Source of the DNA: a virus
Reading direction: 5' to 3' (one strand)
IMG/VR virus record: IMGVR_UViG_3300028378_000032
Coordinates: 1-21,697 of that record
Length of the DNA stretch: 21,697 nt
Shown piece after piece: positions 2,858 to 20,594 of the stretch. The translations under genes were made by a program, and so were the position numbers. Below the pieces are notes generated by a model. It was given only the letters and a program-made list of their open reading frames with translations. It did not search any database and was not told the DNA's origin. Each line of letters starts with the position of its first letter. Position 1 is the first letter of the stretch.

Positions 2858-4297
2858 TTACGCAACACAACGTAAATCAAGTGAAGTGTCGAAGCGCTTG
2901 AGCACTACTCCCATAACTTTCAGGAAGTGAACACTTGCACCGTCAATGTCGGATGCACGTAAGTCGTTACCAGGGAATCCTGTAGGGACTGTGGAACCAG
3001 CTACTGCCCATCTGAGCATTTCACGGTTTTTACGAGTAACCATTTGCAGGTTAGGCTCGCCTTGATAATTGGATTGATCTACGAATACCATTCGGTAGGA
3101 TTCAAGAGGCAATCCAGTTTTCGGATGAAGCTCACTTGCCTGAGCAACACCACCATGGTCAAACAGAGGTACTTTAACTACACGAACAACATGTCCATCG
3201 ACGTGTTGATAAGTAGTGAAGAACCCTGATAGTTCCATGTTTCTACCAGAACCGTTTACAAACTTACCATCGTTAAACTGACGATAAGAACTTGCATCCA
3301 ATTCGGCTTTCATTGCTTGGTCAAACTCATCTGCACCACCAATTCCAGTGTACAGTGTTACCTGTTTGTTTTGACCATCACTCATTCCGTAAAAGATACT
3401 TCGGATAACATCCTTGATCTTTTGGGAAGTAAGGATAGAATAAGTTTCCTTATTCTGAATTTGCTCAAGAAGTCCAGGACCAATAATTACTGGCTGTCCG
3501 TTCTCATCGAGCATGTTTGTTTGCCCTTTGGAATCATAAGACTGCTCACCATACCAGAGGTACATTTCACATTCTTCTTTCCATTGGAGCATATATTGCC
3601 ATTCTTCGAAATCCATCCAGTATTTGGAGGTTCCTCCGCTTGCAGTGGGTAAACCCATCTCCATAACGGTTTCTTTGGCATTACCAGAGATCTGATAAGA
3701 CTTACGAATAGTCGTCAACTTATGACGAACCTTCGCAGGTGCTTCCCAGTTACTGGCATTTCCTCGTGACCAGTCAATTCCAACAGGTGCAAATAATGAA
3801 GCGAACTGACTTCCAGCTGCTACATCGGCTGCAGGCATTGTTGCTGTTGAATCTGGAGACACAAGTCTCAGGGTATAATCCCAGTTTTTACCATTAGGTA
3901 CTGGATCACTCATGATACGTGCCTGAATTCCAGACTTGGAGACAAGGACGTAATCCTTAATGAACCATTTGTCAGGGAAGGTAACTTTGAAGAAACTTCC
4001 TCCGAGACCTAAGTTCGTGGTACTTGCAGGGGTTTCTGCAACTGGTCGAGTTTTTCTCAACCTTGTCATTACATCGTAGCTGTATTCCAGCTCCTCAATT
4101 GATTTTACGTTATTTACACCTTCGGTTAGCATTGAAAGAGGGAATCTTTGATCTTCCTTACCACCTAAAAATGTCAACATAGGACTCAGCTTTTCGGGCT
4201 GAGTAAGTAACGCACTTGAGATAGATGCAACGTCAGACTTTTGCTGATCATTGTATGTGGTACGCTTGGCGTACATGCGTGGTTCTACTTTTGCCAT
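2858..4297 (-). CDS. Major capsid protein (predicted)
   Basis: A 479-residue protein that begins MAKVEPRMYAKRTTYNDQQK and ends in LDLRCVA. Size, balanced composition, position (terminase, portal, acidic scaffold candidate, then this gene) and a dedicated terminator behind it all fit a HK97-fold major capsid protein. N-terminal residues 1-80 look helical and could be a delta-like arm. I cannot prove the fold from sequence alone, and I call it from synteny. The leader is the same 14-nt element found before the 286-aa virion gene, consistent with very high late expression. Confidence 0.75.
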   Translation of the reverse strand: MAKVEPRMYAKRTTYNDQQKSDVASISSALLTQPEKLSPMLTFLGGKEDQRFPLSMLTEGVNNVKSIEELEYSYDVMTRLRKTRPVAETPASTTNLGLGGSFFKVTFPDKWFIKDYVLVSKSGIQARIMSDPVPNGKNWDYTLRLVSPDSTATMPAADVAAGSQFASLFAPVGIDWSRGNASNWEAPAKVRHKLTTIRKSYQISGNAKETVMEMGLPTASGGTSKYWMDFEEWQYMLQWKEECEMYLWYGEQSYDSKGQTNMLDENGQPVIIGPGLLEQIQNKETYSILTSQKIKDVIRSIFYGMSDGQNKQVTLYTGIGGADEFDQAMKAELDASSYRQFNDGKFVNGSGRNMELSGFFTTYQHVDGHVVRVVKVPLFDHGGVAQASELHPKTGLPLESYRMVFVDQSNYQGEPNLQMVTRKNREMLRWAVAGSTVPTGFPGNDLRASDIDGASVHFLKVMGVVLKRFDTSLDLRCVA

Positions 4298-4324: not shown

Positions 4325-5386
4325 TTATAACGTACCAAGCTCAACATTCGCTCCTGTAACTACTTCGTCTTCCTCTTTTTTGCGATCAAGTTTACGTTGA
4401 TTCATACGCTCTCTTAACTTCTTGGCGTTCTTATCTTTCGCTTTTCGATCCACAATAGAAGAAAGGTCAAAGCCTTTAAATAAAAGGTAATCCATTGCCA
4501 GTTGTGTTTCTCTGTCTATGTCTTCGACATCAAGGTCTCGTTGAGACTTGTTGCCATCCACAGGCTTCGAAATGTAATCAAAGAGGGAATCCTTATCCTT
4601 TGCAGGAAGGGTAAACCCTTTTAAATTACTAACTGAAGCAATGTCTTCTTTTACATCGTTCCAGAATTTTTCTACGTTTTGTTGTTTTTGTTTATCTGCT
4701 TCTCTCTGCTCTTCAAGAAGATTGTCTTGGTCTTCTTGTTGCTTAGTACGTAATGCAGAGAGTGCGCGTTTTGCTTTGTTGTCAAGAATTCCCCCGTTCT
4801 TGTAATCCTCTACTTCAGCTTCGATTTCCTCATCAGAGTAACCTCTTACTTTGAGTTCACGCCGAACAAGGTCTTCATGCTGAGAAGAGTCCTCTTCGTT
4901 AAATTCAACCGTGGTGTAGTCTACTTCAGGGAATTTAGTTTTCAAAAACTTGTCAGGGTTTCCGCCAAGTCTTCGATATTCGAGTAGCTCCTGAACATCA
5001 GGGTACTGCTCGAAAATTCTTGCTAATTGTTCATCTGCAAGTTTTTCAGAACTCGCTTGAACTAATTGTTGGATACCTTCTTCGGTATCTTCAAATTCTT
5101 TGTCAAACTCATAACCGAGGGCTTGCTGTATTTCTTTGACCAAAGGAACATCTTCATCAAGAGGATCATCATCATCACCTTCGTCGTCTTCATCCTTATC
5201 AGGATCATCATCATCGACTAAGTTAAGATCTTTATCCTCTTCATCATCTGTATCCTCTACTTCGGGGTCATCTGAAGACTCTTCCTCTTCATCATCCAGC
5301 CCTTCAAGGTTATCGTTTATCTCCATCTCTACTTCTGAAAAGAAGTCAGTAGATAGTTCTTCTTGTTTTTCTTGTTCTTTTGCCAT
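4325..5386 (-). CDS. Scaffold-like acidic protein (353 aa)
   Basis: A 353-residue protein with an extremely acidic N-terminus: about residues 20-80 are dominated by Asp and Glu runs such as DDEEEESSDD. Helical, coiled-coil-prone segments (about 195-235, rich in Gln, Glu and Lys) and a basic C-terminal tail (KDKNAKKLRERMNQRKLDRKK, about 318-338) follow. Acidic or helical body with a basic C-terminus, encoded between portal and capsid genes, is the usual form of an internal capsid scaffolding protein. The tail would touch the capsid's inner wall. No protease domain is visible. The family assignment is by architecture and position. Confidence 0.6.
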   Translation of the reverse strand: MAKEQEKQEELSTDFFSEVEMEINDNLEGLDDEEEESSDDPEVEDTDDEEDKDLNLVDDDDPDKDEDDEGDDDDPLDEDVPLVKEIQQALGYEFDKEFEDTEEGIQQLVQASSEKLADEQLARIFEQYPDVQELLEYRRLGGNPDKFLKTKFPEVDYTTVEFNEEDSSQHEDLVRRELKVRGYSDEEIEAEVEDYKNGGILDNKAKRALSALRTKQQEDQDNLLEEQREADKQKQQNVEKFWNDVKEDIASVSNLKGFTLPAKDKDSLFDYISKPVDGNKSQRDLDVEDIDRETQLAMDYLLFKGFDLSSIVDRKAKDKNAKKLRERMNQRKLDRKKEEDEVVTGANVELGTL

Positions 5387-5458
5387 GTGTTAAAGGTAAT
5401 TATTAGTGATTATAGTGTCAACATTATTCATGAAATTCTTTCAATTACTTTTATGGTT

Positions 5459-7708
5459 TTAAGAATTACTGGAGCTCGTACTCTTTTTAGCTGCTATTTC
5501 TTTAGCTTTAAGCTTCTCCTGAGCCTTGTTAGAGCGTTTTTCTTCCTGTAATTGTCCCATTTTAACTTTTTCTTCTAATTGAAGTTTCATGCGTTGAATC
5601 TGCTCATCTGACATATTCATTACATCAGCGTTAGCAAATTCCTGTTTAATTAGCTCTATATCGATTTTATTTTGACGGTCTAACTCATTTTGCTGAGCGT
5701 CAAACTCACGTTCTTGTTGTTTTTCTTCAAGTTCAGCTTGTTTCATTTGCTGTTCCATTTCAGATGCCTGCTGTTGCAGCTGCTCCATAGAAGCTTCTGC
5801 TTGTTTAACAAGATTTTTAAGTTCAGCAAAGTTATCAGAATCAATGATCTCTGTTATGATAGACATAGGAGCACCATTCTGCATAGCTGCCTGACCAAGT
5901 TGTCTTAACTGTTCAAGCTTATGACGTTCTTTATTAGCGTCTTTAACAAATACACCAAACTCTTCATGTACAAAGGTATCAGGATCGATGTCGATAAACT
6001 TTTCAGTACCATCAGGCATTATGTAATTACCCTTCTTACCATTCAGCCAGGCTATCTGAGAACAATCGATAAGTCCCTGAAGATCTCTTTGTTCAAGTTC
6101 TGCATACTTACGGTATAGCTCTTCTGTAATATGTGAACTTTGAATGATTGCCTGTTCACCTGTAGCTTTACCTTCATATTGTCCCATTTGCCCCATGCGT
6201 TGTCTGGATACCCCACTGACAAATTCCCACTCTTCTTTAATAAACTGAAGCAGGACTATGTATTGTTCAATGGTCTTAATACTCATATCGAGTACAGACT
6301 GATGTTGAGGATTAAACTGTATTCCTTCTTTCTGATAATTCACCCATCCAATACCTGTGGCTTCAAGAATACGCATGAACTTATCCATATCCCAGCCTTT
6401 CGGAATCATGGAGATATCAAGTAACGCTAAAATATCCTTTGATTTGGCTATAGCATTTTCCAATCGGTATTTGTAGATGTTGTAAGATAGCTGATAAGGA
6501 ATTCCTAATGATACCAGACTAATATTCTTTGAGTTTCTCTCACTGTAAGCTCTACCATTAACAGGTAATTTACATTTAGACGGATTGTCTATACTTGTAC
6601 GTTGGTAATCAATAGGACGAATATCCATATAGATATCTCCATCAATACGGAAACCTTGCCATACTTCGTTAACCCATTCCCAATCAAGACTGTAGTCTGT
6701 TTCAGGATTATACTCATATCCCTCTTCTACAATCTCTTCGTATATTTCCCCAAATTCATCCTGATACATACGGAAGCCTACTTTCTTCATACTCTTCCAG
6801 TAAACTGTAACCAACTCTGTATAAGAATCCCACTCATCATGAAAACTATGGTTATCCTGATTATACCAGAAGAACGTATCCCTATTACTATTTTGAGGAT
6901 TTTCAAGACGTCTTACTTCTTCGTCTGTAAGCTGACTTCTAAACTTATCAATAACGCTTGGACGTGATGCCAATTCACGAATAACTGCCCAATTACCATC
7001 TTCAATAAACTCAACATTAGGGTCTTTATCATAGTCTACATCTAAAGGATTCAAATTTTCAAAGAAAGGCTCGTTGTTATACACTCCTTTATGTGTCATG
7101 GCATAGCCACTTACTACGAAATCAAACCACCCTTTCTGGGCTTCATTGTAATAATGCAGGTAAGGAATTAAGAACTCAAGAGATTTTTGAGCCATGATTG
7201 CCCTATTATCTCTCCAGTTACGTTCAAAAATCTGTTGGATATGCTGAGGCAGCTGAGGTTCTTCCCCTTGTTCAATTCCTGTATTAACCCCTGCTTTATT
7301 TAATTTCTGAATAACCCATTTCTGTAATTCCTCATTGATGCGTTCCTGCATCATTTGATGTTTGATATTTTCTACGTCTCCTGAAGAAACAATGACTGTA
7401 AAGTTAAATGGGCGTTTAGCCTTCTCACCTACAAGTAAATCAATACTTGGTTTAATGAGAGGGAAATTACGAATCTTAGCAGGAAAGTTATCGCGCTTCT
7501 TCCCATAGGGTTCGAGCACATAGTTATAATCTTCGTTGTTAATCTTACCATTATAGTAATCATACAACTTAGTCATGAAATAACGGTCTGAATTACTTCC
7601 TGTCTGGAAGTTTGCCTGATCAATATAGGCGTCAACCGTATTTTGTCTCCATGTATCGTCTTTCTTTTCGTAAGTAATAGACTGTTGTGGAATATTTTGT
7701 GTGCTCAT
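5459..7708 (-). CDS. Portal protein (predicted)
   Basis: A 749-residue protein directly downstream of the large terminase (2-nt gap). Length, Trp/Tyr-rich central domain and a long C-terminal helical tail rich in Gln, Glu and Lys (about residues 620-735) match large podovirus-type portal proteins. Portals form the dodecameric ring at one capsid vertex, dock the terminase and pass DNA. The FVSGVSRQRMGQ segment (about 490-501), followed by an EGKATGEQA stretch, resembles the portal wing-to-clip region of Bacteroidetes phages; this is from memory, not alignment. The tail may form the portal barrel. Confidence 0.8.
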   Translation of the reverse strand: MSTQNIPQQSITYEKKDDTWRQNTVDAYIDQANFQTGSNSDRYFMTKLYDYYNGKINNEDYNYVLEPYGKKRDNFPAKIRNFPLIKPSIDLLVGEKAKRPFNFTVIVSSGDVENIKHQMMQERINEELQKWVIQKLNKAGVNTGIEQGEEPQLPQHIQQIFERNWRDNRAIMAQKSLEFLIPYLHYYNEAQKGWFDFVVSGYAMTHKGVYNNEPFFENLNPLDVDYDKDPNVEFIEDGNWAVIRELASRPSVIDKFRSQLTDEEVRRLENPQNSNRDTFFWYNQDNHSFHDEWDSYTELVTVYWKSMKKVGFRMYQDEFGEIYEEIVEEGYEYNPETDYSLDWEWVNEVWQGFRIDGDIYMDIRPIDYQRTSIDNPSKCKLPVNGRAYSERNSKNISLVSLGIPYQLSYNIYKYRLENAIAKSKDILALLDISMIPKGWDMDKFMRILEATGIGWVNYQKEGIQFNPQHQSVLDMSIKTIEQYIVLLQFIKEEWEFVSGVSRQRMGQMGQYEGKATGEQAIIQSSHITEELYRKYAELEQRDLQGLIDCSQIAWLNGKKGNYIMPDGTEKFIDIDPDTFVHEEFGVFVKDANKERHKLEQLRQLGQAAMQNGAPMSIITEIIDSDNFAELKNLVKQAEASMEQLQQQASEMEQQMKQAELEEKQQEREFDAQQNELDRQNKIDIELIKQEFANADVMNMSDEQIQRMKLQLEEKVKMGQLQEEKRSNKAQEKLKAKEIAAKKSTSSSNS

Positions 7709-7710
7709 TA

Positions 7711-9768
7711 TTAAAAGCGATTAAAGAATTCTTCGTGTTCTGTTTTTTGTACGGCTTCCACTTGTTGATTAAACTTCTCTTTAAGGTGATACATTCCAAC
7801 AAAAAGAGCAGAAACTCTATCAAAGTTACCTTTTTTGTTAAATTTTATCAACTCTTCGAGCAAAGCAATATCATATATCGTATTTAATACAAGCGTTTCT
7901 TTGTCTTCTTCTGTGTTCTTACTAACGGTCTGTAATAGCCAGTCTCTTAAATAAATCTCTCCCTCTTCTTTACGTGCGGTAGTCATGTTCATTCCATAAC
8001 TCCGCTTCGTATTACCCTGAAGATGCTTTTTATCCATGAACTTAAATTCAGGTTCCAGCATATGGAGTTTGTGATGTCGTCGTGCATAGCCAATTACATC
8101 TCCCCTGTCATTCTCAAATCCTATCTTTGCATTATAATATTCAGCAAGCATGAACAACATGTTATTATACTCATCTCTTGAGCTTGGTCTTCCTACGTAA
8201 CTGGCAACAATACAATTATTAAATGTGGTGGAGTATTTGTTTACCCGTTTTATAACGTATGCAGCTCCTAAAGAGAAGCTTGAATATTCTGCTGTTGTGT
8301 CTTGTGCAAAAGGATCATGTACTACGATGTACATGTTTTCAGGTACACCATCTCCCATTCTAAATGGAGACTCGTAAATAAGAGGACACCCTACCACATC
8401 ATCATCTTTAGCATGAGGAAACTTCATAATAGATTTTGCGTCAGGGTCAAGCTTAAACTTAACATCTCCTTCCTGCCTGTAGAAATACCCAGGCGTTCCT
8501 ATATTATATGTCTTGCTTGCTAATACCCTGTTCTTTTGTTCAGCCAGCTGCTGAGAAGGAAACAAGTTTGTGTCGAAAGTCATAATAGCTTCCCTCGGCA
8601 TAAATGGCGTTTCAGCTATATACTGGGAATAGGTATTGGTCCCTTTGGCTTTCTTCTTGATCTTCCGTTGTTTCATCTCATATTCAATAGCTTTTTCTCT
8701 GAGAGAATTACCAGCTTCATCCATGAATCCACGAAGGTTTTGATAGATAGGAACAAAGAATCCACAATCTGTACCACTGGCACCTTCATCCCACTGGTTG
8801 TTAAATCTAAGACAATCACTACCTTCAGGTTCATAATACAGTTCTTCAGCTCCCTGGAAATCAGCGCCCTCTGTACCACCAGTACCAAAAGCAATCATAA
8901 GTCCAAGAGCATCAATCCCCTCTTTAACCGTGTGATGTGTAATATCCCAAGCTTTTTTCAATCCGGGGAACTTACCCATCTCCTCGAAGAGTACTAACTC
9001 TCCAGCTTTACCACGAGCCCTATCTGGGTTATCCTTTAATGAGATACCCTGTACAATAGATTGCTTTCCTTTCTGAACTTCTGTTCCCTTAATAACCTCT
9101 GTGTACCCACTCTTATAATACATATCAGAGTCACGGCTATTAATAGTAGGTTGAGTATAGGCTGTATACTCATTAATAAACGCCATACCATCAAGGAACT
9201 TCTGGTAGATACCATCACCCTGCAGATACTTCTTATCATACGCGAATACAAAGTTCTTACTACGAGAGAGGAAGAAGTAGTTACGGCATAACATAGCCGC
9301 ACATTTATAAGAGTACCCTTTACGACGAGCTTTAAGAACAACTAACTGTTTTCCACCTTCAAGATCTTTCTTGTTAATCTCTACTCCAAGATTGAGCGCT
9401 TCATAGGCTTCTACACTAATACCTTTACGAGCAATTTCACATGCCCAAAAGAAGTCATAATCTCCGTCATAGAAGTCTGGCGGGAAGTACTCACGTTTCT
9501 TATAGGTCCTTCCATTCTCTGTTACTTCTACAGAACGATCAATACGAAAAAAGTTAAGATAGAAGTAATGATACCCAGTGATCTTTATACCATTGGCTTC
9601 ATATCCCTCTAAACACCGGCGCTCATGCTCTTTCCAAAAGCGTAGCCATTCTTCAGTATCAGGAATAAGCTTTGTATAAACTCCATGCTCTTTGTAGTAA
9701 TTAGCTACAGGACTTAAAGCTTTGGTTCCTTTAAATTTATTTTTACGTGAGTTAAATTCTAATTCCAT
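7711..9768 (-). CDS. terL: Terminase large subunit (DNA-packaging ATPase/nuclease)
   Basis: A 685-residue terminase. Residues 147-155 (ARRKGYSYK) form a deviant Walker A loop, ELVLFEE (257-263) is Walker B with the catalytic Glu, and GTGG (295-298) fits the coupling motif. The C-terminal RNase H-like nuclease shows an HDP acidic site (Asp485) and ENDRGD (552-557). The enzyme pumps genome DNA into procapsids through the portal and cuts it. I chose the ATG at 9768-9766. The frame extends 12 codons further upstream, but that extension would run into the terminator hairpin. The portal follows two bases after its stop. Confidence 0.92.
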   Translation of the reverse strand: MELEFNSRKNKFKGTKALSPVANYYKEHGVYTKLIPDTEEWLRFWKEHERRCLEGYEANGIKITGYHYFYLNFFRIDRSVEVTENGRTYKKREYFPPDFYDGDYDFFWACEIARKGISVEAYEALNLGVEINKKDLEGGKQLVVLKARRKGYSYKCAAMLCRNYFFLSRSKNFVFAYDKKYLQGDGIYQKFLDGMAFINEYTAYTQPTINSRDSDMYYKSGYTEVIKGTEVQKGKQSIVQGISLKDNPDRARGKAGELVLFEEMGKFPGLKKAWDITHHTVKEGIDALGLMIAFGTGGTEGADFQGAEELYYEPEGSDCLRFNNQWDEGASGTDCGFFVPIYQNLRGFMDEAGNSLREKAIEYEMKQRKIKKKAKGTNTYSQYIAETPFMPREAIMTFDTNLFPSQQLAEQKNRVLASKTYNIGTPGYFYRQEGDVKFKLDPDAKSIMKFPHAKDDDVVGCPLIYESPFRMGDGVPENMYIVVHDPFAQDTTAEYSSFSLGAAYVIKRVNKYSTTFNNCIVASYVGRPSSRDEYNNMLFMLAEYYNAKIGFENDRGDVIGYARRHHKLHMLEPEFKFMDKKHLQGNTKRSYGMNMTTARKEEGEIYLRDWLLQTVSKNTEEDKETLVLNTIYDIALLEELIKFNKKGNFDRVSALFVGMYHLKEKFNQQVEAVQKTEHEEFFNRF

Positions 9769-18252: not shown

Positions 18253-18693
18253 TTGTTTCACAGGGGCTTTCTATGTCTCGTAACACAGTTACTCGCCAAT
18301 TGCCTTCGGCAAATTATTAATATTGAACTTCAACCAGGAAAAACTATATTCCAGACAAAAGATAGTGACTATTATGATGATGATTTAAACATTGCTCAAA
18401 AGTTGATTCATCTAAGCGAGAATGCAGAAAATAGAAATATTGAGTTTAATTTGTCTTTTACTCATTTTAAGAAAGAGTTAGCTCGTAAATTCTGTCCATA
18501 TACAGGCAGACAATTAATAGCTACTGGACAAGACAAAAGAACTGTTGAACGTATTGATAGTTCTTTAGGCTATACTGATGACAATGTAATTGTTATTAGT
18601 CATCAAGCTAACATGGCCAAGGGAAACCTAAGTTATAAGGAAGTAAAAAAGATGTACCAGTTTCTTAAACGGTACCACGAGAAACTACTGTGA
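18253..18693 (+). CDS. HNH-type endonuclease, free-standing, start uncertain
   Basis: A frame of 146 residues. CPYTGRQL (about 81-88), VERID and LGYTDDNVIVISHQANMAKGN form the compact HNH-like fold seen in many phage homing endonucleases (C-P-Y-T-G ... E-R-I-D ... G-Y-x-x-x-N). Only a TTG start at 18253 opens the frame; no in-frame ATG precedes the domain. A separate ATG frame (18273-18320) ends in TAA at the point where the long frame becomes protein-like, so the 5' end may be frameshifted or start elsewhere. A GCC-TTC-GGC hairpin lies there. The gene stops 6 nt before the tmRNA, so it may mobilise that locus. Confidence 0.65.
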   Translation: MFHRGFLCLVTQLLANCLRQIINIELQPGKTIFQTKDSDYYDDDLNIAQKLIHLSENAENRNIEFNLSFTHFKKELARKFCPYTGRQLIATGQDKRTVERIDSSLGYTDDNVIVISHQANMAKGNLSYKEVKKMYQFLKRYHEKLL

Positions 18694-19070
18694 ATAAATG
18701 GGGGTGTCTTGGATTCGACAGGCTTACAGACGTCGGACACTATGACTCAAGCGTGAGTGCTTGTAAATCAACTCGACAACCATGTTAAATGGCAAAAATA
18801 AAGTTGCTGGCTTCATAGGTCAGCCTAAGAAAATGAAAGCAGCTGCGTAGTCAGTTTGTTTTCCTCTTTAGTTCGTGAACCACCTACGTTCTAAAGAGTA
18901 TACGGTGTGGGAACCTGTTATCATACAGTAAAAATGATGATCACGGACGCTGATAATAACAAAGCCCTCTATCATATTTTCAGCCGAACTGATTTAAAAG
19001 AATTACTACTTGATTGAGGCTATAGTCATATACGTAGAAGAAAGACGAAGATCTGGACCGGGGTTCGACT

Positions 19071-19807
19071 CAAAGGGTCACTATATAGGTAACTATATAG
19101 ATAAAAATTGGATGAATTGCTGGAAGGCTAAGTATTTATATAAGTATATGCTAATCAGCAGCGAAGTCGTGAGTACACTCACGAAACGTTCAGAGACTAC
19201 TGGAGAACTTTAGAGTTCTTAATTACCAGCTAGAGCGTCCAACTCCTCGCTAAGAGGATGATGATATAGTCCGTAATCTCTCGGAAACGGGAGGCAAATC
19301 AGAAAGTTTACCACGATCAGCTAATCTATGATGATTAAGGCACAAAACTGTTAAGTTTTTTAGTGAGTTATTACCTCCTTCTTTTCTAGGAGTTATATGA
19401 TGGATATCACATTGATCTTCATTCCAACCGCATATAAAACATGACAGGTTTTTGTCTGTGCTAATTTTCAAGGCTTTATAAACCTTTCGCTGAATACGTG
19501 GACGCTGATTTGATAATTTATTATTTCTGTAATGCCTTGATTTGCATTTACCAGAACAGAACTTTGCATTGTGTGCTTTTGTAGTAAATTTATTTTTACA
19601 AACTACACAATCCTTTATTACTGTTTTTCTGCCGTCATTTCTATTTTTTGCCGCGCAGCTTCTGGAACAAAATTTAGCATTACCTCTATTAAGCTCCTTT
19701 ATAGGAGCCAAAAAATTACTGCCACACCAATCACAAATTGTTGTTTTATGTTTCATAAGATAATATATAAACGGTGGGCATGAGAAATAAATAAATTATA
19801 ACATTAG
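19071..19807 (+). mobile_element. Group I intron in the tmRNA T-loop
   Basis: A 737-nt intron. The 5' splice site follows exon GACT, and GACTC-AAA-GGGTC gives P1 with the U-G pair at the cut site. The last intron base is G19807 (omega-G). Core elements are seen in order: P (AATTGCTGG, 19115-19123), Q (AATCAGCAGCGAAG, 19153-19166), R (GTTCAGAGACTA, 19188-19199) and S (GATATAGTCC, 19263-19272), with GACTA/TAGTC forming P7. Removing it rejoins exons into a perfect T-arm. Group I introns self-splice using guanosine. The 3' part carries an antisense HNH gene. The exact splice sites are inferred from pairing. Confidence 0.9.
19250..19756 (-). CDS. HNH homing endonuclease, antisense inside the intron (168 aa)
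   Basis: A 168-residue protein in two parts. Residues 1-80 hold two zinc-finger-like modules (CDWCGSNF...CSRSC and CVVCKNKF...CSGKC). Residues about 110-155 form the HNH domain: CFICG, then CDIHHITPRKEGGNN and LCLNHH, with HH and the final His as catalytic and metal ligands. Such enzymes cut intron-less alleles so that repair copies the intron. It is encoded opposite to the tmRNA, and its last codons (ERLRTISSSS, stop at 19250) run across the intron's P7/P8 strands. Sharing bases between protein tail and ribozyme core is a tight constraint. It needs its own promoter on the minus strand. Confidence 0.9.
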   Translation of the reverse strand: MKHKTTICDWCGSNFLAPIKELNRGNAKFCSRSCAAKNRNDGRKTVIKDCVVCKNKFTTKAHNAKFCSGKCKSRHYRNNKLSNQRPRIQRKVYKALKISTDKNLSCFICGWNEDQCDIHHITPRKEGGNNSLKNLTVLCLNHHRLADRGKLSDLPPVSERLRTISSSS

Positions 19808-19824
19808 CCCCGCACCTCCACTAT

Positions 19825-20069: not shown

Positions 20070-20594
20070 ATGACGACTCAATCAACAACTCAAGAACAAA
20101 TGAAAACTAAAGAAGCAGTATCAATAATCGAAAAACAACAATACAATAACGTTACAGAGCTTTTCAAGGAAAAAGTAGGACAGGCAGTAGACGTAACTGT
20201 TGGAAAAATGAAAGAGCTACAAATAAGAACGTTAGATATACCCGGCATCGGTGAGCTACAATTAACAGAGCACGGTAGCCAATTTCATTACGAGCTTTTC
20301 CAATGGAAAAATGATGGATTATCCGATCTTTACAATGACAAAGATCTTAGTGGTGACTTGCTTTCAAGTCATAATACAAGAGCCGATACAGAACAATCTG
20401 GCAGTTATTATGGAGGCGACTTCAACCATTGGATTAACTACCCTTCAAAATCTGCTGTAATGAAATTTGCGTCAAATTTCGACAAAATCCTAAAAGCTCT
20501 TGAAAAAGAAGAGGATAAAGCCGTATCAGAGGCTCAAAAGGCAATTGAGCTAATAAGTTTGATTGATCAAGCAAAAGAGGATCAGTCTAACTGA
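20070..20594 (+). CDS. Unknown protein in a repeat-flanked cassette (174 aa)
   Basis: A 174-residue protein (MTTQSTTQEQMKTKEAVSII start): a polar N-terminal helix, a middle region with GIGELQLTEHGSQFHYELFQ, Gly/Tyr-rich YYGGDFNHW, and a long charged C-terminal helix (about 134-170, SNFDKILKALEKEEDKAVSE). GGAGG lies 6 nt before the ATG. It stands between two copies of CTCCCTTCGGG, next to chromosomal fragments, as if inserted as a unit. No family is recognised. Confidence 0.65.
   Translation: MTTQSTTQEQMKTKEAVSIIEKQQYNNVTELFKEKVGQAVDVTVGKMKELQIRTLDIPGIGELQLTEHGSQFHYELFQWKNDGLSDLYNDKDLSGDLLSSHNTRADTEQSGSYYGGDFNHWINYPSKSAVMKFASNFDKILKALEKEEDKAVSEAQKAIELISLIDQAKEDQSN

Follow-up and report, generated by a model that had tools for sequence, protein, structure and literature searches.

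A crAss-like phage tmRNA gene split in its T-loop by an evidently mobile group I intron with an antisense HNH gene

In a virus contig of 21,697 nt (IMGVR_UViG_3300028378_000032; hereafter the window), a tmRNA gene of a Crassvirales phage appears to be split by a mobile, predicted self-splicing T-loop group I intron with a homing HNH endonuclease, an explanation to which we assign a probability of about 0.86. Comparison of sequences establishes the anatomy of the gene, its exact boundaries and a recent transfer of the complete intron between the tmRNA genes of unrelated phages; splicing, charging, expression and cleavage we infer. The intron has clear boundaries, is evidently mobile and belongs to a wider family found in crAss-like phages. 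The features of the window are as follows.

18253..18693, plus strand: free-standing endonuclease-like gene immediately 5´ of the tmRNA (phrog_3322, E 3.3e-18; phrog_1400, Srd anti-sigma, E 2.6e-22)
18700..19070, plus strand: tmRNA exon 1 (RF00023; ARAGORN on intron-removed DNA)
18791..18850, plus strand: tag reading frame GKNKVAGFIGQPKKMKAAA with stop TAG (ARAGORN; positions 92-151 of the spliced tmRNA)
19059..19070, plus strand: 5´ half of the T-stem, CGGGG, and T-loop TTCGACT, with the 5´ splice site after T19070 (sequence; covariation with the 3´ T-stem half beyond the intron)
19071..19807, plus strand: group I intron, 737 nt, at T-loop subsite 8 (identity to the L043/L044 intron between different exons; RF00028; P1 covariation)
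19071..19294, plus strand: ribozyme core P1-P9, in which additional P7.1/P7.2-like stems separate P7 from P3, subgroup IA type (cmscan alignment; fold z-score)
19250..19756, minus strand: HNH homing endonuclease gene, 168 aa, after P9 (PF01844, E 1.1e-6; phrog_1271, E 8.6e-23; dN/dS of relatives)
19757..19807, minus strand: HNH gene leader in the intron tail, CCCACCGTTTATAT, a weak match to CCACA-N2..5-CGTTA
19808..19820, plus strand: tmRNA exon 2, with the 3´ T-stem half CCCCG, the 3´ acceptor half CACCTCC including U70, and discriminator A (acceptor pairing; sequence)

The split tmRNA gene and the boundaries of its intron

A preliminary description had proposed a full tmRNA interrupted in its T-loop by a group I intron, with Rfam covariance models as the check, and both RNAs were found. 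RF00023 matches 18708-19072 with a modest score of 52.6 bits (E 2.6e-18; gathering threshold 47), and RF00028 matches 19055-19294 over the full model (1-253) with 89 bits (E 7e-22; above the gathering threshold). ARAGORN found no tmRNA in the intact window; after removal of 19071-19807 it returned one with a 19-aa tag, GKNKVAGFIGQPKKMKAAA*, that ends in small non-polar residues and a stop, and tagged peptides would end in GFIGQPKKMKAAA. A call of a permuted gene by the same program was rejected, as it arises from treating the test sequence as circular. Exon 1 contains the 5´ acceptor half GGGGGTG (18700-18706), the D-domain, the tag frame, the pseudoknot region and helix 2, as well as the 5´ half of the T-arm and the entire T-loop. 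Joined to exon 2 it gives a tmRNA of standard order with a predicted spliced length of 384 nt (18700-19070 plus 19808-19820), the length first proposed. The acceptor stem GGGGGTG/CACCTCC has 7/7 pairs, including the G3-U70 wobble that is the alanine identity mark of tmRNA and tRNA, and a 7-bp acceptor stem with G3-U70 is kept in all tmRNAs checked. CCA is not encoded by the window tmRNA and would need adding; it is encoded by the tmRNA of L043, described below.

The RF00028 alignment covers a conserved P3-P9 with the P7 guanosine site. In P1, GACT (19067-19070) pairs with GGTC (19076-19079), which places a U-G pair (U19070-G19076) at the 5´ splice site, and the final intron base is G19807; position -5 of P1 is a mismatch (A vs C). 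Removal of the intron restores a 5-bp T-stem and a 7-nt loop. The joint (19070/19808), the 737-nt length, the restored stem and loop and the U-G pair were all verified on the sequence as originally claimed. The 5´ T-arm and intron core together fold with a z-score of -4.5 against dinucleotide shuffles, none of 200 being as stable. Insertion after T-loop nucleotide 7 corresponds to subsite 8 in the numbering of PMC11915505, and bacterial examples were recovered at the same junction. ARAGORN by itself accepts many junctions, so that the exact joint needs other evidence; it follows from P1, from the T-stem and from L043, where a different tmRNA contains an intron that is 99.7% identical.

Covariation was measured on nine genes with an intron at the window site, in which the T-stem halves lie 253-766 nt apart. 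These halves stay complementary by compensatory change across the intron. In T-stem and P1 together, 97.8% of cells are paired and five pairs have both sides changed; the covariation is 0.494 vs 0.124 in shuffles (0/500), and nothing similar is seen when slid. Exon position -2 shifts between C, A and T in step with G, T and A of the guide, and the U-G pair is invariant. The empty site is found in intronless relatives, L082 (MT835863, ...GGGGTTCGACT/CCCCTATGCTCC) beside cr4_1 and cr125_1 beside cr118_1; the latter two belong to the same subfamily, and in L082 as in cr125_1 the T-loop is plain at the insertion point. The resolution of an intron-core tree was too weak to root the phage introns against bacterial introns.

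The antisense HNH gene and movement of the intron

The antisense HNH gene, also part of the preliminary description, was borne out by a PF01844 match above cut-off and an invariant catalytic motif (D117, H119, H120, N134 and H143). Its C-terminus, RTISSS, is encoded on the antisense of P8/P7 in the ribozyme core. A sequence profile search with the protein matched the HNH domains of McrA, IscB and others, and an AlphaFold model (mean pLDDT 70, pTM 0.38) is good for a zinc-finger-like N-terminus and poor for the HNH part. Homologous genes are placed likewise, on the antisense strand of the intron, in cr4_1, cr118_1, L039, L045, L074 and cr1_1/cr55_1. Purifying selection on the gene is seen between cr4_1 and cr118_1 (dN 0.070, dS 0.566; dN/dS ~0.12), relatives being used for this measure while the window and L043 differ by just two bases. 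As judged from these comparisons, both functions, tmRNA and endonuclease, are conserved. In gut crAss introns, CCACA-N2..5-CGTTA precedes the endonuclease start, with two other scattered matches in the 97 kb examined, and it is reasonable to suppose that the HNH gene has its own antisense promoter.

The endonuclease gene is antisense in every phage T-loop intron seen with one, and three protein families are represented. The introns of cr6_1 and cr128_1 have an antisense endonuclease of a third type, to which the free-standing gene at 18253-18693 is related (BLASTP E 1e-8 and 2e-7). The latter is possibly a partner in collaborative homing. A P1-anchored pattern (GGTTCGACTCNNNGGGTC) searched against viral contigs retrieved mostly ordinary tRNA T-arms and L027 as the only new intron; L040 and L041 were rejected as chance matches in protein-coding sequence. 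In L027 (reverse complement, 8194-8897) a tmRNA of standard form is interrupted at the window site too, and the antisense gene of its intron is LAGLIDADG instead of HNH.

A search based on HNH led to two virus contigs, L043 and L044, that carry the same intron. Between the window and L043, 735/737 intron positions are identical (99.7%; two bases differ), compared with 242/426 in the tmRNA exons (57%; shuffled 47%) and 47-51% in the flanks. The high identity is confined to the 737-nt intron and short adjoining stretches of T-loop and acceptor. The L043 tmRNA is recognised as such (E 1.9e-12), and the tags of the two tmRNAs have a common AGFIG core and AA end. A near-identical intron between very different tmRNA exons marks both of its ends and indicates recent horizontal movement.

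The two phages differ. The terminase of the window is 34-37% identical to those of crAss-like phages (cr55_1, cr109_1 and others), and its terminase, portal and major capsid proteins match PHROG families phrog_6681, 6547 and 11589, which makes the window phage, by its proteins, crAss-like (Crassvirales) at the order level and agrees with the earlier assignment to a likely Bacteroidetes phage. Phages of this type infect Bacteroidota. The neighbouring protein at 20070-20594 retrieved no relatives when used as search bait. The L043 and L044 contigs (49-54 kb, perhaps fragments) have no match to the terminase, capsid or portal of the window, and this absence of crAss genes suggests a non-crAss phage. 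They encode a family A DNA polymerase, an NAD kinase, a B12-type ribonucleotide reductase, the gene for which adjoins a GIY-YIG gene, and a protein of 534 aa that in part of its sequence is 24-33% identical to phage tail sheaths; this content suggests a contractile-tailed phage of another kind than the window phage. The simplest reading is that the intron jumped recently, in either direction, from one of two unrelated phages to the other. Such an intron, 99.7% identical in two unrelated phages, resembles a natural homing experiment, and the recent horizontal transfer indirectly suggests that the HNH protein may cleave the intronless tmRNA allele.

Permuted and intron-split tmRNA genes in relatives

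In cr4_1, cr118_1, cr1_1, cr55_1, L039, L045 and L065, the intron-bearing 3´ tRNA-like half precedes the tag-bearing 5´ half, from which it is separated by 17-187 nt. ARAGORN reported a permuted tmRNA on the intron-removed sequence of cr4_1, cr118_1, L039, L065, L045 and cr1_1, and tags of the permuted tmRNAs are GNTSYVMDYTRLAA, GNNVNFFDYTLKVA, GNMNIADYTGLKEAA, GNTFVTDYTGIAA and GNTMFVTDYSCVA. Two of these loci are placed as follows.

L002 (cr4_1), 4960-6030: permuted, intron-split tmRNA with antisense HNH gene
L003 (cr118_1), 4970-5950: permuted, intron-split tmRNA with antisense HNH gene

The same combination is found in L039, L045, L065, L083 (cr1_1) and L084 (cr55_1). Several crAss RefSeq genomes have intronless permuted tmRNAs under the annotation SsrA, and the tmRNA is unannotated in the intron-bearing RefSeq records examined; the permuted gene with an intron is a form of tmRNA gene that annotation tools miss. 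At least three T-loop subsites are in use within Crassvirales, with subsite 7 in cr1_1 and cr55_1 and subsite 3 in cr128_1 (L086, standard order). The permuted, intron-split genes of gut crAss-like relatives use subsites 7 and 8. The ribozyme cores of L045 and L081 (cr6_1) are identical at 173/180 positions (96%) despite different subsites and endonuclease families, which suggests swapping of endonuclease modules and switching of sites.

Several further observations concern these loci. The cr6_1 intron lies near subsite 3, and its 3´ boundary fits the terminal-G rule poorly. L075 (cr56_1; 1860-2520) and L078 (cr113_1) have a permuted, intronless tmRNA whose T-loop, TATCGTAT, is unusual in having 8 nt and is perhaps intron-resistant; the spacer that separates their tmRNA halves contains an antisense endonuclease gene. 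In L074 (2306-3045 and upstream exon), the tag frame may be of about 40 codons (GNIITNEV...ELELAA) vs 11 by ARAGORN. A Hatchet ribozyme (cr4_1, L045, L065) and a RAGATH-9 RNA (cr4_1, L065) lie a few kb upstream of the tmRNA, at 1924-2052 and 3493-3654 in cr4_1. L065 (MSGT01000071.1) is a 100-kb crAss-like contig, near-identical to cr4_1 here, that is binned in a Sphaerochaeta MAG, probably wrongly.

Interpretation and comparison with known systems

We propose that a standard-form tmRNA gene of a Crassvirales phage has been interrupted after T-loop nucleotide 7 by a mobile group I intron. Once transcribed, the intron would fold, with the guide GGTC pairing with the last T-loop nucleotides GACU, and would excise itself with a guanosine cofactor, joining 19070 to 19808. 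Self-splicing would restore the T-arm and acceptor stem, and the tmRNA, once processed and provided with CCA, could accept alanine and serve, perhaps with host SmpB, in trans-translation in the infected cell; the phage tmRNA would then depend on splicing. The HNH protein, made from its own transcript, would cut intron-lacking tmRNA genes at the T-loop, and the intron would in this way spread to co-infecting phages.

The intron may instead splice and yet be simply a selfish element, carried in a phage tmRNA that is dispensable or decaying, with trans-translation left to the host tmRNA. The host presumably has its own tmRNA, the phage sequence evolves fast, as the 57% exon identity shows, and the T-loop is aberrant in cr56_1 and cr113_1. 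However, every phage copy examined has preserved its acceptor stem, G3-U70, T-stem and tag frame through compensatory changes, and the window and L043 tags retain their core and end. A decaying gene would lose such features, and we consider this alternative unlikely. The antisense position of the endonuclease gene in all three families, and the overlap of the HNH transcript with the ribozyme core at RTISSS, could also be read as parts of a timing switch, in which antisense transcription represses splicing and the tmRNA is active only under splicing conditions (GTP and no interfering HNH transcription). Bacterial subsite-8 introns without an endonuclease gene (L050, 253 nt; L070, 334 nt) show that such a gene is not needed for persistence of the intron, and a switch of this kind seems quite improbable. 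The window comes from the contig of an uncultured virus, but the chance of an assembly artefact, or of a chance join of two unrelated pieces in a metagenome contig, is negligible, given the same architecture in at least seven independent records (including RefSeq cr4_1, cr118_1 and cr1_1), breaks exactly at splice sites and strong covariation.

Beyond the proposed splicing and homing, one tentative idea, to which we give somewhat less than an even chance as a whole, is that an arms race among Bacteroidota phages has a hot spot in the tmRNA T-loop. Several intron-endonuclease elements would invade standard and permuted phage tmRNA genes, at subsites 3, 7 and 8, and cut the tmRNA of rival phages (or of the host), excluding them; cr56_1 and cr113_1 would resist by their altered T-loop, and permuted genes would give a two-piece tmRNA only after removal of the intron and processing of the ends. 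The system makes testable whether phages conduct trans-translation of their own and whether this depends on a ribozyme, and also how homing introns pass from one phage to an unrelated one within a single host.

T-loop introns had been described at first as known from a few bacteria and phages. Their existence stands and their rarity does not, as a survey of 97,179 tmRNA sequences catalogues 883 unique intron-bearing ones, all in the T-loop, and the part of the survey drawn on here, including its table of forms, describes none of them as phage and has no permuted-and-intron class (PMC11915505). According to the same part, subsite 7 occurs across 21 phyla and subsite 8 is restricted to Saprospiraceae, with subsite 3 found in Bacteroidia and subsite 2 mostly in Anaerolineae; the introns average 293 nt, none exceeds 700 bp, and 36 (4%) have an endonuclease gene, identified as LAGLIDADG. 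In the open-licence PMC text, no report was found of tmRNA in crAss-like phages or Crassvirales, of phage tmRNA introns or of permuted-plus-intron genes.

Our genome scan recovered tmRNA introns only in one Saprospiraceae genome (L070), one other Bacteroidia genome (the MAG L050) and the phage contig L065, most other matches being tRNAs or chance. The two bacterial introns are at subsite 8, which provides a check of the site numbering, and share insertion site and P1 (GACT|CNNAGGGTC) with the window; unlike the window intron they have no endonuclease gene, and their cores are ~50-60% identical to phage cores. Group I introns with associated endonucleases are found in the same phage order in the MCP, PolB and primase genes (PMC7886860), that is, in protein genes, with tmRNA unmentioned there, whereas the window intron is in tmRNA. 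Some nuclear rDNA introns, e.g. Didymium L2066 (PMC9548176), also have an endonuclease gene in their P9 region that runs antisense to the ribozyme; there it is of the His-Cys family and in eukaryotic rDNA rather than an HNH gene in phage tmRNA. The bacterial intron-form tmRNAs (Clostridia and others) likewise have a T-loop group I intron, U at -1 with U-G in P1, additional stems around P7, G as the last intron base and a tmRNA restored by splicing, here predicted. Those introns are mostly at subsite 7; relative to that part of the survey (PMC11915505), what is new in the window intron is that it is phage-borne, at subsite 8 outside Saprospiraceae, longer than 700 nt and equipped with an antisense HNH gene.
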